34,364 nucleotides of DNA from Candidatus Zixiibacteriota bacterium (GTDB lineage Bacteria; Zixibacteria; MSB-5A5; GN15; FEB-12), in NCBI GenBank assembly GCA_022571845.1, contig JACZXB010000005.1, positions 147,888 to 182,251 on the forward strand, in the 5' to 3' direction. This document shows positions 1,751-19,014 of this stretch, in pieces. The notes below the pieces were generated by a model. It was not told the DNA's origin, did no database searches, and saw nothing but the letters and a program-made list of their open reading frames with translations. A program made the translations under genes and the position numbers. Positions within the stretch are counted from its first letter, which is position 1. Every line of letters starts with the position of its first letter.

Positions 1751-2293
1751 TCAGGCTGTCTGCTTCTTTTTTACCAGTTTGCTGGCGAAGCGGTCCAAAA
1801 GCGCATCAGATTCGCCTTCTTCAAGCATTGCAAAGGCTGTTGGATTCTGAGAACTGAATCCGACCAAACCTATAACTTCGCCTTCAAATTTCAGAGGTTT
1901 CAGAGCAAACGACTGTGTCAGCGGCTCCAGCAGAAGTTTTTGTTCAAAGAAATTTCCGCTAAAAGCATTACTGAAGCTCTCGGTATAGAGGTTACCGTCT
2001 TCGATAACTTTTTCAAAGAGCGACTTAGCTGGCGGCAGGCTGAGCGACAGACCATCGCGTTTTTGGCCGTTGGCCCAGGTAGAAATGGCCGAGAGCGAGG
2101 AGTCTTCCTGCTTTAAAACCAGAACACTCTTGCCGATTTCGTATTTGTCTTTTAGATGGTTAGTGATTTCAAAAAAGATTTCCGCAGGATCGCTTTCCTG
2201 TTCAAGTACCTGATTGATATCTTTTACACTGCCGTTTGATACGGTAGCAGAGACAGATGACGGCATAGATGTGGTCTCATTGATGTTGTTCAT
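1751..2293 (-). CDS. GAF-like domain protein of a regulatory cluster
   Basis: This 180-residue soluble protein has a low-complexity Ser/Thr-rich N-terminus (about 1-25). Residues 30-170 read as a GAF-like sensor fold: a helix, then strands such as KSVLVLKQ, a variable loop region, and a terminal LKFEGEVIGLVGFSSQNP stretch typical of the last GAF strands. No output domain, kinase core or HTH is visible. It is the last of three minus-strand genes and overlaps the NtrC-like gene by 17 bases. A G-run about ten bases upstream of its ATG serves as ribosome binding site. It may sense a ligand or bind the neighbouring regulator; both are inference. The GAF assignment itself is by pattern only. Confidence 0.6.
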   Translation of the reverse strand: MNNINETTSMPSSVSATVSNGSVKDINQVLEQESDPAEIFFEITNHLKDKYEIGKSVLVLKQEDSSLSAISTWANGQKRDGLSLSLPPAKSLFEKVIEDGNLYTESFSNAFSGNFFEQKLLLEPLTQSFALKPLKFEGEVIGLVGFSSQNPTAFAMLEEGESDALLDRFASKLVKKKQTA

Positions 2294-3671
2294 CTGAATA
2301 AACCCCCAAAGTTTCAGTTTCAGATTCTTTGTTTTTTTCTAGCTTAAATTTTCTTACTTTTCTCCAGAGAGTGGTTCTGCCGATGCCCAGCTGCTGGGCC
2401 GTATGAGTAAAATTCCAATTGTTGTCTTCTAAGGCTTTGGTAATATGCATTCGCTGGTTGTCTGCCAGTGATGACTTTTGGCCGTCTTTTGATTTAATTG
2501 CAGAGGCTAAGCTTCCTTTACGATGGGCCGACTCAACGAAAGTAACAGAGACGGCATCGAGATTTTTTTCCTGACAGATTGTAACTGCGCGCTTCAGGCA
2601 GTTCTCCAGTTCACGCACATTTCCGGGCCAGTCATGTTTCGATAGTTTTTCAATCGCTGAAGAAGTTATTCCCAATGACGGACTATCGATTTCAAAGGCG
2701 TATTTTCTTAAGTAATACGAGGCCAGAACTTCGATATCTTCAATCCGATTATCCAGTGACGGAATCGAAATCTCAATCGCTTGCAGCAGCTCAACTAAGC
2801 GGTTGTCGACTAAGTTTTTCCTGACCAGGTTGTAAAGCGGCTGATCGCAGGCAAGGATGAGTCTCGGCATTGCCGATTGGCTGTCTGATAAGGATTTATT
2901 CTGATTTAACGCGATGAGCTGTGTCAGCAGTTTTTGTGAATCTAAATGCATACTTTCTAAGTGAGAGATGAAAACTGTTGAGGCATCCATACTGCTTGAA
3001 TCGAATATTCTTTTTAACTCTGTTTCGATAAATTCCCTGGTGGCGCTGGAGCAGTCGATACTGTTAAGTTCATTTTTGCGACGTAGAGAATGATAATGAA
3101 TAATATTGGCCAGAAGAGTTTTGCCAGTACCGGTTTCTCCCGAGATAACGACCGGGATATCACACAGCGCCATTTGCATGGCAGTCTTTCGAATCCGTTC
3201 TATTTTTAAGGAAACTCCAACAAAATTGTCAAAGCCGTAGTTCATGGCGATCTGCTGACGCAGCATCATTAGTTCGCTCATGTTATCTTTTGATGCGGTT
3301 ATGGCCGTTATTTTTGACAGCAGAATGTCACTATTGATCGGGTTTAGAAGATAGTCGGAAGCTCCTGCATTTATAGCTGTTGCTGCCAGTTCTTGATTTT
3401 CCGGATTAATCACTGCCAGAATTTCAGTATTGGGGAATTCGCTGGTAAATTGCGATATAGCAGTCAACAGCTCGCCTGAGTCATCGTCTATCATCACTAT
3501 CATTATGAGATAATTTTTCCCGCCTAATTCTGTGCGAGCGTTTTCGAGACTTGTTACTCGTGTGAAGCGGTGAAGCAGTTCAGGTATCGCAATACTTAGT
3601 GAGCTACTCTGGTTTGATTTTATATCCAATACGAGAATCTCAATTGGAGCTTCTCTGCTACTTGTAAGCAT
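2277..3671 (-). CDS. Degenerate NtrC-like regulator: receiver-like, AAA+ and Fis-type HTH
   Basis: This 464-residue protein has the domain order of an NtrC-family activator. The receiver-like domain (about 10-125) has an Asp at the phosphoacceptor position (about D62) but NP instead of the conserved KP (N110). The AAA+ domain (about 145-365) keeps Walker A GETGTGKT (178-185) and the DWPGNVRELENCLKRAV block. The segment that should contain the GAFTGA sigma-54 contact loop is about a dozen residues short and lacks that motif, and the Walker B acidic pair is replaced by Ser-His in TVFISHLE. A Fis-type helix-turn-helix (about 404-444) is well kept. It probably still binds DNA, but classical sigma-54 activation is unlikely. 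I take the ATG at 3671 behind AAGGGA; a TTG at 3674 is the alternative. It overlaps both flanking genes. Confidence 0.8.
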   Translation of the reverse strand: MLTSSREAPIEILVLDIKSNQSSSLSIAIPELLHRFTRVTSLENARTELGGKNYLIMIVMIDDDSGELLTAISQFTSEFPNTEILAVINPENQELAATAINAGASDYLLNPINSDILLSKITAITASKDNMSELMMLRQQIAMNYGFDNFVGVSLKIERIRKTAMQMALCDIPVVISGETGTGKTLLANIIHYHSLRRKNELNSIDCSSATREFIETELKRIFDSSSMDASTVFISHLESMHLDSQKLLTQLIALNQNKSLSDSQSAMPRLILACDQPLYNLVRKNLVDNRLVELLQAIEISIPSLDNRIEDIEVLASYYLRKYAFEIDSPSLGITSSAIEKLSKHDWPGNVRELENCLKRAVTICQEKNLDAVSVTFVESAHRKGSLASAIKSKDGQKSSLADNQRMHITKALEDNNWNFTHTAQQLGIGRTTLWRKVRKFKLEKNKESETETLGVYSDEQHQ

Positions 3672-4845
3672 CAATTTTGTGTCCCTTAAAATTTATTGAA
3701 AGTTCGCTAATCAGAGCATCTCTGCCGTCAGAAATATCTATTAGCGAGAACTGCAGCTTGCCAGACAATTTTGCCGCTAACTTCCACCATTCATCTTCTT
3801 TGATGTCGATTTTGCTCATAGCTTTGGCGTCAGTCGTAAACACAATCTTCAGATTGCCGTCAAGGGGAGATACCAGTTTCATTGTAGTTTTACTGTCAGT
3901 TCCGATTTTGGAGCGGTGAGTCATTAGTATCGACTGCAAAATCAGCCGAACAGTAGCCTTAAAATTTGATAGAGTTTGAGAATAACTGGCTGCAGCCGTA
4001 GACCCAAAATCATCAGAAATCTTTACTATCTGAGAAGTGACTGAATCCAGTTCCGAAAGAATCGTGTCGGAAATAGCAAGGTGCAGATTTTTTTCCAGCA
4101 GCGCATTTAGGCGGCTGGTATGTATATCTGTGGCGGTGACTTCGTCGATGACCTTTATAGACTCAGCTAATGACGACTGGGCAGTAGTCAGTTTATCTGA
4201 AATTTTCTTGGATTTGCTTTCATTGGCGCTGATTTCAGAGAAACTGATCAGGGAAAGATATAATTCTCCAGCTTGCATATTTTCAAGCTTCATTTTGGTA
4301 GAACCAAGAAGTTTTAGGAAGGCACCTTTGGCGGCACCAAATTCTGTCCCAATTATATTTGAATCACTAATGCCGGTAGTTCGGCAGAACTCTTTGCTGC
4401 AAGCGATAACTCTGCCCGATGACCTGCTCACCAGGATAGCTGAGTACTTGTTAAATTTGAGATGTACGCGCAGGGCGGTCTCTTTGATTGCTTGCCAGTC
4501 TGAAAAAATAGCAACTGCCAGGCCCTGATGTTTCATCAAAGGGTCGCTGATGGCCAGTTCTCCCTGTTGGACAGAGATTATCAAGTTCGGGTCGCTCTTG
4601 TCGACGGCTTCAAAATAAACCGTTTCACTGTCTTTACTGATTATAGGTCTGGAGCCGGTGGCAAAGGCGGCTGCAATCATTTCAGTTTCGTAGCTGCTTA
4701 GCCGGCCGTTTAACATCAAGCCCAGAAGTACCGACTCAACTGCTACGGATTTATGTTCATCAACAATTCTGCTGACTGAATCAAGCATGTTATCGGCATT
4801 ACTTAATGCTCTCAGCGGGGTCTCTTGATTTTTAGTAGTGGCCAT
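3658..4845 (-). CDS. PAS-containing, histidine-kinase-like sensor without catalytic motifs
   Basis: This 395-residue protein is predicted soluble, with no membrane segment. Residues about 30-125 look like a divergent sensor fold. Residues 128-205 read as PAS, with AILVSRSSGRVIACSKEF followed by a TGISDSNIIG segment. A Ser/Lys-rich linker and helices (about 215-310) sit where the dimerisation domain of a histidine kinase would be. Residues 320-390 resemble the strands of an ATP-binding domain, but I see no H-box histidine in a convincing context and no N, G1 or G2 box. It heads the minus-strand cluster, and its stop lies inside the NtrC-like gene (14-17 base overlap), suggesting stoichiometric production of the two. 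It may be a pseudokinase partner of that regulator. The kinase-like reading of the C-terminus is tentative. Confidence 0.6.
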   Translation of the reverse strand: MATTKNQETPLRALSNADNMLDSVSRIVDEHKSVAVESVLLGLMLNGRLSSYETEMIAAAFATGSRPIISKDSETVYFEAVDKSDPNLIISVQQGELAISDPLMKHQGLAVAIFSDWQAIKETALRVHLKFNKYSAILVSRSSGRVIACSKEFCRTTGISDSNIIGTEFGAAKGAFLKLLGSTKMKLENMQAGELYLSLISFSEISANESKSKKISDKLTTAQSSLAESIKVIDEVTATDIHTSRLNALLEKNLHLAISDTILSELDSVTSQIVKISDDFGSTAAASYSQTLSNFKATVRLILQSILMTHRSKIGTDSKTTMKLVSPLDGNLKIVFTTDAKAMSKIDIKEDEWWKLAAKLSGKLQFSLIDISDGRDALISELSINFKGHKIDAYK

Positions 4846-4975
4846 ATTCTATTTGTATGTTTCAATTTGGGACAACTACAAATAGTATCGGGCAGATTGT
4901 AGAAACCTTAACAGCCCCATTCTGGGTGCATATTTAGGGCCTATAATGACTTTTTGGGAAAGGTTGTCTTTGTCC

Positions 4976-17856: not shown

Positions 17857-19014
17857 ATGGCTGAATTTAAGCATTTTGACTTAAAAATTGTAGCCCCAGA
17901 ATTCGATTCCCCGCTTATAAATCTAATCATAGAGCTGGATAAACTAAGAGAGAGAGTTCTTTATGGTTCTACAAAGCCGATTATTTTTTATCAACTCAAA
18001 CAGATTTTCCATATGCTCGAAAGTCTTGCTTCAGCAAGAATAGAAGGAAACAATACAACAGTAGCAGATTATATAGAAACGAAAATTGAGCAATCATCTA
18101 AAAGTAATGATATGCAATTCAGGGAAATTCAGAACATGGAGGTCTGTCTGGATTTTATCGAAGAAAATATTGAAGACTCAAAAATTGATAGAGCGTTTAT
18201 AAGTGAACTTCATAAAATAGTCACAAAGGACTTACCTTTTAAAAATAAAGGTGAAGGAGACGAGACACCGGGAGCATATAGATCGAAACAAGTAAGCATA
18301 GCGAATTCATCACATATTCCACCTGAACCGGTTACTGTTTATAGTTACATGGAAGAATTGTGTGAATTTATTAAGACTGAACATGAATCCAAGTACGATC
18401 TTTTGAAAACATCTCTTGTGCACCACCGCTTCGTTTGGATTCATCCCTTTAACAACGGAAATGGGCGGACAGTTCGAATGCTTACATACGCAATGCTTAT
18501 CAAGTATGGGTTTAGTGTTCAAGCTGAGGTCGGAAGAATATTAAATCCCGCGGCAGTATTTTGCAATGACAGAAAAGAGTATTATGCTAAATTAGCTTTA
18601 GCAGATACAGGAACCGATGAGAATGTTTTGAAATGGTGTGAGTACGTACTAGGAGGCTTAAAAAAAGAGATTGAAAAGATTGACCGTTTACTAAAGTATG
18701 ATTTTTTAAAAAGCAAAATTCTGGTTCCAGCAATTGTTCATGCTTTAGACCGGGCATGGATAACTGAAATAGAATTTAGAGTACTAAAAAAAGCGATAGA
18801 TAAACAAATTATAAAGGCAGCAGACTTAAGCGATGTTATTCACACGAGGCATCTGCCAGAACGCTCAAGAATTATTCGGCGTCTAAAAGATAAGAAAATG
18901 CTTATTTCTGTCTCTGGAAGTCCGCGAAAGTACGCCATTTGTTTTCAAAATAATTATCTAATTCGGGGCATTATTGAACAATTGTCAAAAGAGGGCTTTG
19001 TTTCGGTTAATTAG
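17857..19014 (+). CDS. Fic-domain protein (probable AMP-transferase) with C-terminal winged helix
   Basis: This 385-residue protein carries the Fic core motif HPFNNGNGRTVR (196-207), complete with catalytic His and the GNGR anion site. Fic enzymes usually transfer AMP from ATP to Ser, Thr or Tyr of a target protein. An N-terminal SARIEG (59-64) matches the (S/T)xxxE(G/N) inhibitory helix, so it is a self-inhibited class II Fic. TPGAYRSKQVSI (137-148) is the usual flap region. Residues from about 300 to the end look like a winged helix-turn-helix. The sequence is more AT-rich than its neighbours and interrupts panC-panD, suggesting horizontal acquisition. It has its own promoter, nearby repeats and a downstream terminator. 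No antitoxin gene is adjacent. Confidence 0.92.
   Translation: MAEFKHFDLKIVAPEFDSPLINLIIELDKLRERVLYGSTKPIIFYQLKQIFHMLESLASARIEGNNTTVADYIETKIEQSSKSNDMQFREIQNMEVCLDFIEENIEDSKIDRAFISELHKIVTKDLPFKNKGEGDETPGAYRSKQVSIANSSHIPPEPVTVYSYMEELCEFIKTEHESKYDLLKTSLVHHRFVWIHPFNNGNGRTVRMLTYAMLIKYGFSVQAEVGRILNPAAVFCNDRKEYYAKLALADTGTDENVLKWCEYVLGGLKKEIEKIDRLLKYDFLKSKILVPAIVHALDRAWITEIEFRVLKKAIDKQIIKAADLSDVIHTRHLPERSRIIRRLKDKKMLISVSGSPRKYAICFQNNYLIRGIIEQLSKEGFVSVN

Follow-up and report, generated by a model that had tools for sequence, protein, structure and literature searches.

A probable flagellar-class regulatory operon of Candidatus Zixibacteria in which a kinase and an NtrC-type regulator have degenerated together

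Brucella NtrX is an NtrC-family protein without the GAFTGA loop, and both it and the NtrC of Caulobacter have a cognate kinase and a phosphorylatable receiver. Caulobacter NtrC, in which GAFTGA is likewise missing, works at sigma-70 promoters (PMC12421884). Among the kinase–regulator pairs tied to flagellar assembly, FlrB/FlrC, FleS/FleR and FlgS/FlgR all phosphorylate and use sigma-54, and PAS domains are present in the kinases FlrB and FleS (PMC7064773). A close described case is FlbD of Caulobacter crescentus, a flagellar regulator of the NtrC type whose receiver has diverged; active without a cognate kinase, it needs no phosphorylation, is controlled by its partner FliX and represses fliF through ftr4 (PMC3096577, PMC3930126). 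A 2025 review calls it a mystery how pseudo-receivers are switched (PMC12632262).

The locus described here lies in a window of 34,364 nucleotides (the whole stretch of DNA that was analysed); all sequences used come from uncultured, assembled genomes, and the assignment to Candidatus Zixibacteria follows from named assemblies. Three minus-strand genes, A, B and C, overlap by 14 nt (A/B) and 17 nt (B/C) with ATG starts, as an earlier note on this DNA had claimed; the TTG start listed for B is one codon ahead of the ATG. The features are the following.

4886–4911, minus strand: sigma-28/FliA-type promoter TTAAG-N15-CCGATA, upstream of A
4858–4874, minus strand: palindromic candidate operator TGTCCCAAATTGAAACA, consensus TGTNTCANNNTGAAACA, 11 nt downstream of the -10
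3658–4845, minus strand: gene A, 395 aa, ATG, PAS-type pseudo-histidine kinase; an N-terminal domain, PAS at about aa 134–205 and a degenerate DHp/CA-like C-terminus, with the H, N, G1 and G2 boxes absent
2277–3671, minus strand: gene B, 464 aa, ATG, NtrC-like
3297–3671, minus strand: pseudo-receiver of B, aa 1–125, phospho-Asp replaced by Met and Lys by Asn
3117–3140, minus strand: Walker A of B, GETGTGKT, aa 178–185, intact
2961–2978, minus strand: Walker B position of B, TVFISH, aa 232–237, D-E replaced by S-H
2358–2390, minus strand: recognition-helix core of B, LGIGRTTLWRK, aa 428–438, identical in 58 of 58 trio B proteins
1751–2293, minus strand: gene C, 180 aa, ATG, GAF-like partner

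By homology, B has a REC–AAA+–Fis HTH architecture, as judged from Pfam (AAA_lid_14, 1.5e-18; Sigma54_activat, 2.1e-15; HTH_8, 2.2e-12; Response_reg sub-threshold at 0.0039), from a structure model (pLDDT 78) and from a fold search, in which Brucella NtrX ranked top, followed by NtrC1. The earlier note had held that the receiver Lys, the GAFTGA loop and the Walker B acidic pair are lost from B while the Fis-type HTH and Walker A are intact, and the residue check bears it out on all these points, the DNA-binding part being the conserved part. The same check shows that the acidic pair of B reads D-I (its second acidic residue replaced by Ile), that the Arg finger is replaced by Leu with the sensor-II Arg kept, that the GAFTGA sigma-54 loop is deleted in the window genus, and that the residues for kinase-to-regulator phosphotransfer are absent in that genus and present in family f9. 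From these residues, B of the window genus is predicted to be unable to be phosphorylated, to hydrolyse ATP or to contact sigma-54. The paralogues sampled in its own genome keep GAFTGA and have different recognition helices, so that the loss is specific to the trio operon. As an NtrC-family protein without GAFTGA, B resembles Caulobacter NtrC and Brucella NtrX, but it differs from them in having neither the receiver residues nor Walker B, and its partner A has no kinase boxes. The flagellar pairs FlrB/FlrC, FleS/FleR and FlgS/FlgR are matched in full architecture by the f9 orthologues, whereas the window members are by sequence incapable of phosphorylation and sigma-54 use.

For A, Pfam returned PAS alone, sub-threshold (0.046), and the histidine-kinase test by residue check found no H, N, G1 or G2 box in it; the N, G1 and G2 boxes had already been reported missing, and the H-box His is gone as well. 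Over the DHp/CA region, the A family profile aligns to the canonical histidine kinase orthologues with an hhalign probability of 95.5 (E 1.4e-8), and a fold search with the structure model of A returns PAS-histidine kinases, a match that is supportive only, since the mean pLDDT is 62. Structure prediction, proposed in the earlier note as a check, gave histidine kinase-like (A) and NtrX/NtrC-like (B) folds whose active sites are not intact. At two other loci (L054:7710-8750 and L055), A stops soon after the H box, its entire catalytic domain being gone, and the receiver and AAA+ residues of B are intact. The GAF-like nature of C is supported by its orthologue L033, which exceeds the Pfam GAF cut-off (PF01590; 1.7e-6, 29.0 bits against 22.4), the window C itself being under that cut-off with a sub-threshold match to GAF_2 (0.0035).

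The canonical form of the system is found in family f9 (L244, L246 and L247), where A has every part of a histidine kinase (HATPase_c, 2.6e-23 in L246) and the receiver, GAFTGA or GSFTGA, D-E and Arg finger are all present in B (Sigma54_activat, 6.9e-71, and Response_reg, 9.4e-32, in L247). Since the canonical version occurs in the outgroup families, the window state is the derived one, and the ancestral state is a canonical histidine kinase with a receiver/GAFTGA AAA+ activator. The same f9 loci carry an extra stand-alone receiver between B and C (L247:7371-7739, about 122 aa, Response_reg 7.7e-13). Receiver, loop and ATPase residues are all kept in 19 of the 58 trio B proteins and all lost in 32, and the other 7 are mixed. 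No protein retains the loop without the ATPase residues; retained loops within the order read G[AS]FT[STN]A, not GAFTGA. Parsimony on the flanking-gene tree gives a minimum of 5 changes for the loop, 6 each for D-E and the Arg finger and 8 for the receiver, and f9 adds one more case of loss, L245 beside L244 in the same genus. For joint loss, an independent-pairs test reached no significance, the pairs being too few, and the Fisher values are uncorrected for relatedness. A tree of B only groups the degenerate members of f1, f2 and f3. We attribute this to long-branch attraction, since L059 clusters with f2 in the tree of flanking genes and its C gene is of the f2 type. In f1, the kinase ATP-binding boxes are absent from every A examined, and the survival of the H box mainly beside intact receivers suggests an intermediate stage with phosphotransfer only.

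The view of the trio as an undescribed module thus stands in part, for it derives from a canonical kinase/NtrC pair that is intact in sister lineages, with precedents in FlbD/FliX and Caulobacter NtrC; the parts, and phosphorylation-free NtrC proteins as an idea, are already known. Pseudo-receivers, aspartate-less receivers and pseudo-histidine kinases such as DivL have also lost the phospho-acceptor Asp and Lys or the kinase boxes. What is new, and sets the trio apart from them, is that kinase and regulator have degenerated in concert within a single fixed operon, and have done so in several lineages, with the DNA reader and the operator constant.

In most genomes examined in one order of Candidatus Zixibacteria, the trio stands in the fixed order pyrG-kdsB / A-B-C / mltG-ruvX. 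The top B match is well above the paralogues in nearly all of 40 relatives, and a gene-C profile search gave matches in 114 of 132 phylum genomes, strong ones in families f1–f4, f9 and f10, with many of the others being weak GAF matches in larger proteins. Within the genus, dN/dS (NG86) is 0.18–0.25 for A, 0.15–0.16 for B and 0.13 for C, the best conserved of the three, against 0.06–0.18 for the neighbour genes; the ATPase-dead AAA+ domain of B gives 0.08–0.10 and the N-terminus of A 0.07–0.08. The orthologous trio at the same place across the order, together with dN/dS of 0.13–0.25, shows that the trio is not due to chance, and both the presence in relatives and the purifying selection that the earlier note had wished to see examined are found. 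A, B and C are not decaying and are held by purifying selection. The stops of gene C (1751) and mltG (1750) abut convergently with a gap of 0; elsewhere in the window (17857–19014, plus strand), a Fic-type protein with the motif HPFNNGNGR lies inside a housekeeping gene cluster.

The consensus of sigma-28 (FliA) promoters is TAAAGTTT-N11-GCCGATAA, and both strings occur in FliA papers. The conserved promoter and operator upstream of A (4858–4911) lie outside 1751–4845, the part treated in the earlier note, and had been missed. Across the order, the upstream module reads TAAAG-N15-CCGATA, usually followed 11 nt on by TGTNTCA-NNN-TGAAACA. The promoter and operator module, scored at fixed spacing, reaches 19 of 24 or more in 28 of 39 upstream regions. 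Among 2316 control windows about 14 do so, and a number of these overlap a real site; in several of the low-scoring upstream regions the start is mis-called and the site is present further in. A sigma-28-like box stands upstream of A also in f9 and f10, which have the same HTH core but not the full palindrome, f9 having AGTTTCAC at that place. The sigma-28 box without the operator is seen in two genomes from which A and/or C have gone: G017 has B alone behind a perfect sigma-28-type box (L064, 8318–9670), and G019 has the trio without C (L058, 8686–10119). A FliA profile matches in 40 of 40 genomes at E<=0.001, 35 of them over the cut-off, and RpoN is present in 37 of 40. Judged by its promoter element and the genomic FliA, the trio appears to be a sigma-28-dependent operon.

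An operator scan of the order gave about two matches per genome and almost none in the reversed control. The recurrent non-trio sites, YGTTTCA-NNN-YGGCACA-N4-TTG, lie 65–75 nt upstream of fliR, and the pattern YGTTTCANNNYGGNACANNNNTTG occurs 25 times, mostly upstream of fliR, in 22 of 40 genomes, with 0 in the control; a related site stands at the fliR promoter of about 25 genomes. The usual gene order after fliR is flhB-flhA-flhF-flhG, and fliA follows about 6–7 kb downstream of fliR on the same contig. The fliR site overlaps a sigma-54-like -24 element, by which its TGGCACA half is equally explained; its TGTTTCA half is weak or missing in f4, and the site of the window genus is imperfect (TGTTTCA-AAC-CGGCATA). 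The -12 of the fliR promoter (e.g., L156, L158, L175 and L177) reads TTGC in f2, f9 and f10 and TTGA or TTGT in f1 and f4, a difference between families that suggests a change of sigma factor at the fliR operon. One more exact match to the operator, upstream of a flagellin gene of the own genome, was rejected as a target and is probably due to chance, since it lies inside a TPR coding sequence; that flagellin gene is served by a sigma-28-like promoter of its own that lacks the operator. At L089:1731-1765, a flagellin gene has the sigma-28-type promoter TTAAG-N15-CCGATT and no trio-type operator. The one-mismatch scan of the own genome (24 matches versus 15 in the control) was uninformative, and a pattern with the sigma-28 box fixed and the gap free to vary matched mostly trio promoters and revealed no further regulon. 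The upstream sigma-28 promoter, the palindrome and the related fliR site together point to the control of flagellar genes, a function that the earlier note had not seen.

We consider it probable that A-B-C is a flagellar-class regulatory operon, expressed from sigma-28, in which B acts without phosphorylation, mainly as a repressor, and is tuned by contact with A and C. In the predicted mechanism, an operon descended from a canonical histidine kinase/NtrC-type sigma-54 activator pair and a GAF protein would be transcribed from the sigma-28 (FliA) promoter, so that its expression would coincide with activity of the late flagellar sigma factor. The B dimer most likely binds the palindrome at its own transcript start through the unchanged Fis-type HTH, and probably also the TGTTTCA site at the fliA-carrying fliR operon. 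By occupying promoters, B would serve mainly as a repressor or feedback brake, probably repressing its own operon, with its activity set by direct contact with the pseudo-kinase A and the GAF protein C, as FliX does for FlbD. FlbD represses an early flagellar promoter via a site there; for the trio, conserved candidate sites, with binding predicted, lie at its own sigma-28-type promoter and at fliR. The two systems differ in that FlbD keeps sigma-54 activation, and in that the trio operon has a pseudo-kinase and a GAF protein in place of FliX and a sigma-28-type promoter; against the NCBIfam FlbD model, B scores 133 bits and does not reach the cut-off of 750. Going further, several lineages may independently have made the system into a phosphorylation-free, ATPase-free flagellar repressor module whose dead parts were selected as protein-contact parts, a proposal that we advance tentatively and with rather more doubt than belief.

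The sign of regulation could be the opposite, with B activating sigma-70 or sigma-28 promoters by recruiting RNA polymerase, in the manner of HupR or Caulobacter NtrC. Family proteins without GAFTGA do act at sigma-70 promoters (PMC3162934, PMC12421884), and the fliR promoter in f1 and f4, without the -12 GC expected of sigma-54, may be served by another form of polymerase; however, the operator of the trio lies just downstream of its own -10, a position usual for repression, and we regard activation as unlikely. It is rather improbable that the palindrome belongs to another regulator and that B binds elsewhere: the presence of the HTH core without the full palindrome in f9 and f10 would fit such an arrangement, but the operator is gone in G017 and G019, where A and/or C are lost, and neither the operator nor the HTH core shares in the changes seen in the rest of B.

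The fixed neighbourhood of the trio with mltG/ruvX and kdsB/pyrG could mean that it serves the adjacent cell-envelope genes (kdsB, mltG) instead of flagella, yet these neighbours are on the opposite strand and did not turn up next to it in f9 or f10, where the sigma-28-like box is still there; the operator pattern is rare and recurs at fliR, and the promoter of the trio is of the flagellar sigma-28 type; a role in the envelope is therefore very improbable. That the three genes are decaying, functionless remnants, as the lost catalytic residues and the disappearance of A or C from some genomes might be taken to mean, is extremely improbable in view of the dN/dS of the genes and of the dead AAA+ domain, and of the conservation, throughout the order, of reading frames, gene arrangement, promoter and operator.

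If A-B-C is indeed a sigma-28-expressed flagellar repressor operon, it would offer access to flagellar regulation in an uncultured phylum. One orthologous operon is seen here at many stages, from a full kinase and GAFTGA activator to complete loss, with a recognition-helix core that does not vary and an operator that is the same within the order. With such a graded series around a constant DNA reader, one can test which of the old components still matter after the loss of phosphorylation and ATP hydrolysis. Because the enzymes were lost repeatedly and the DNA-reading part stayed unchanged, the family offers a natural series for studying regulators that work without phosphorylation.
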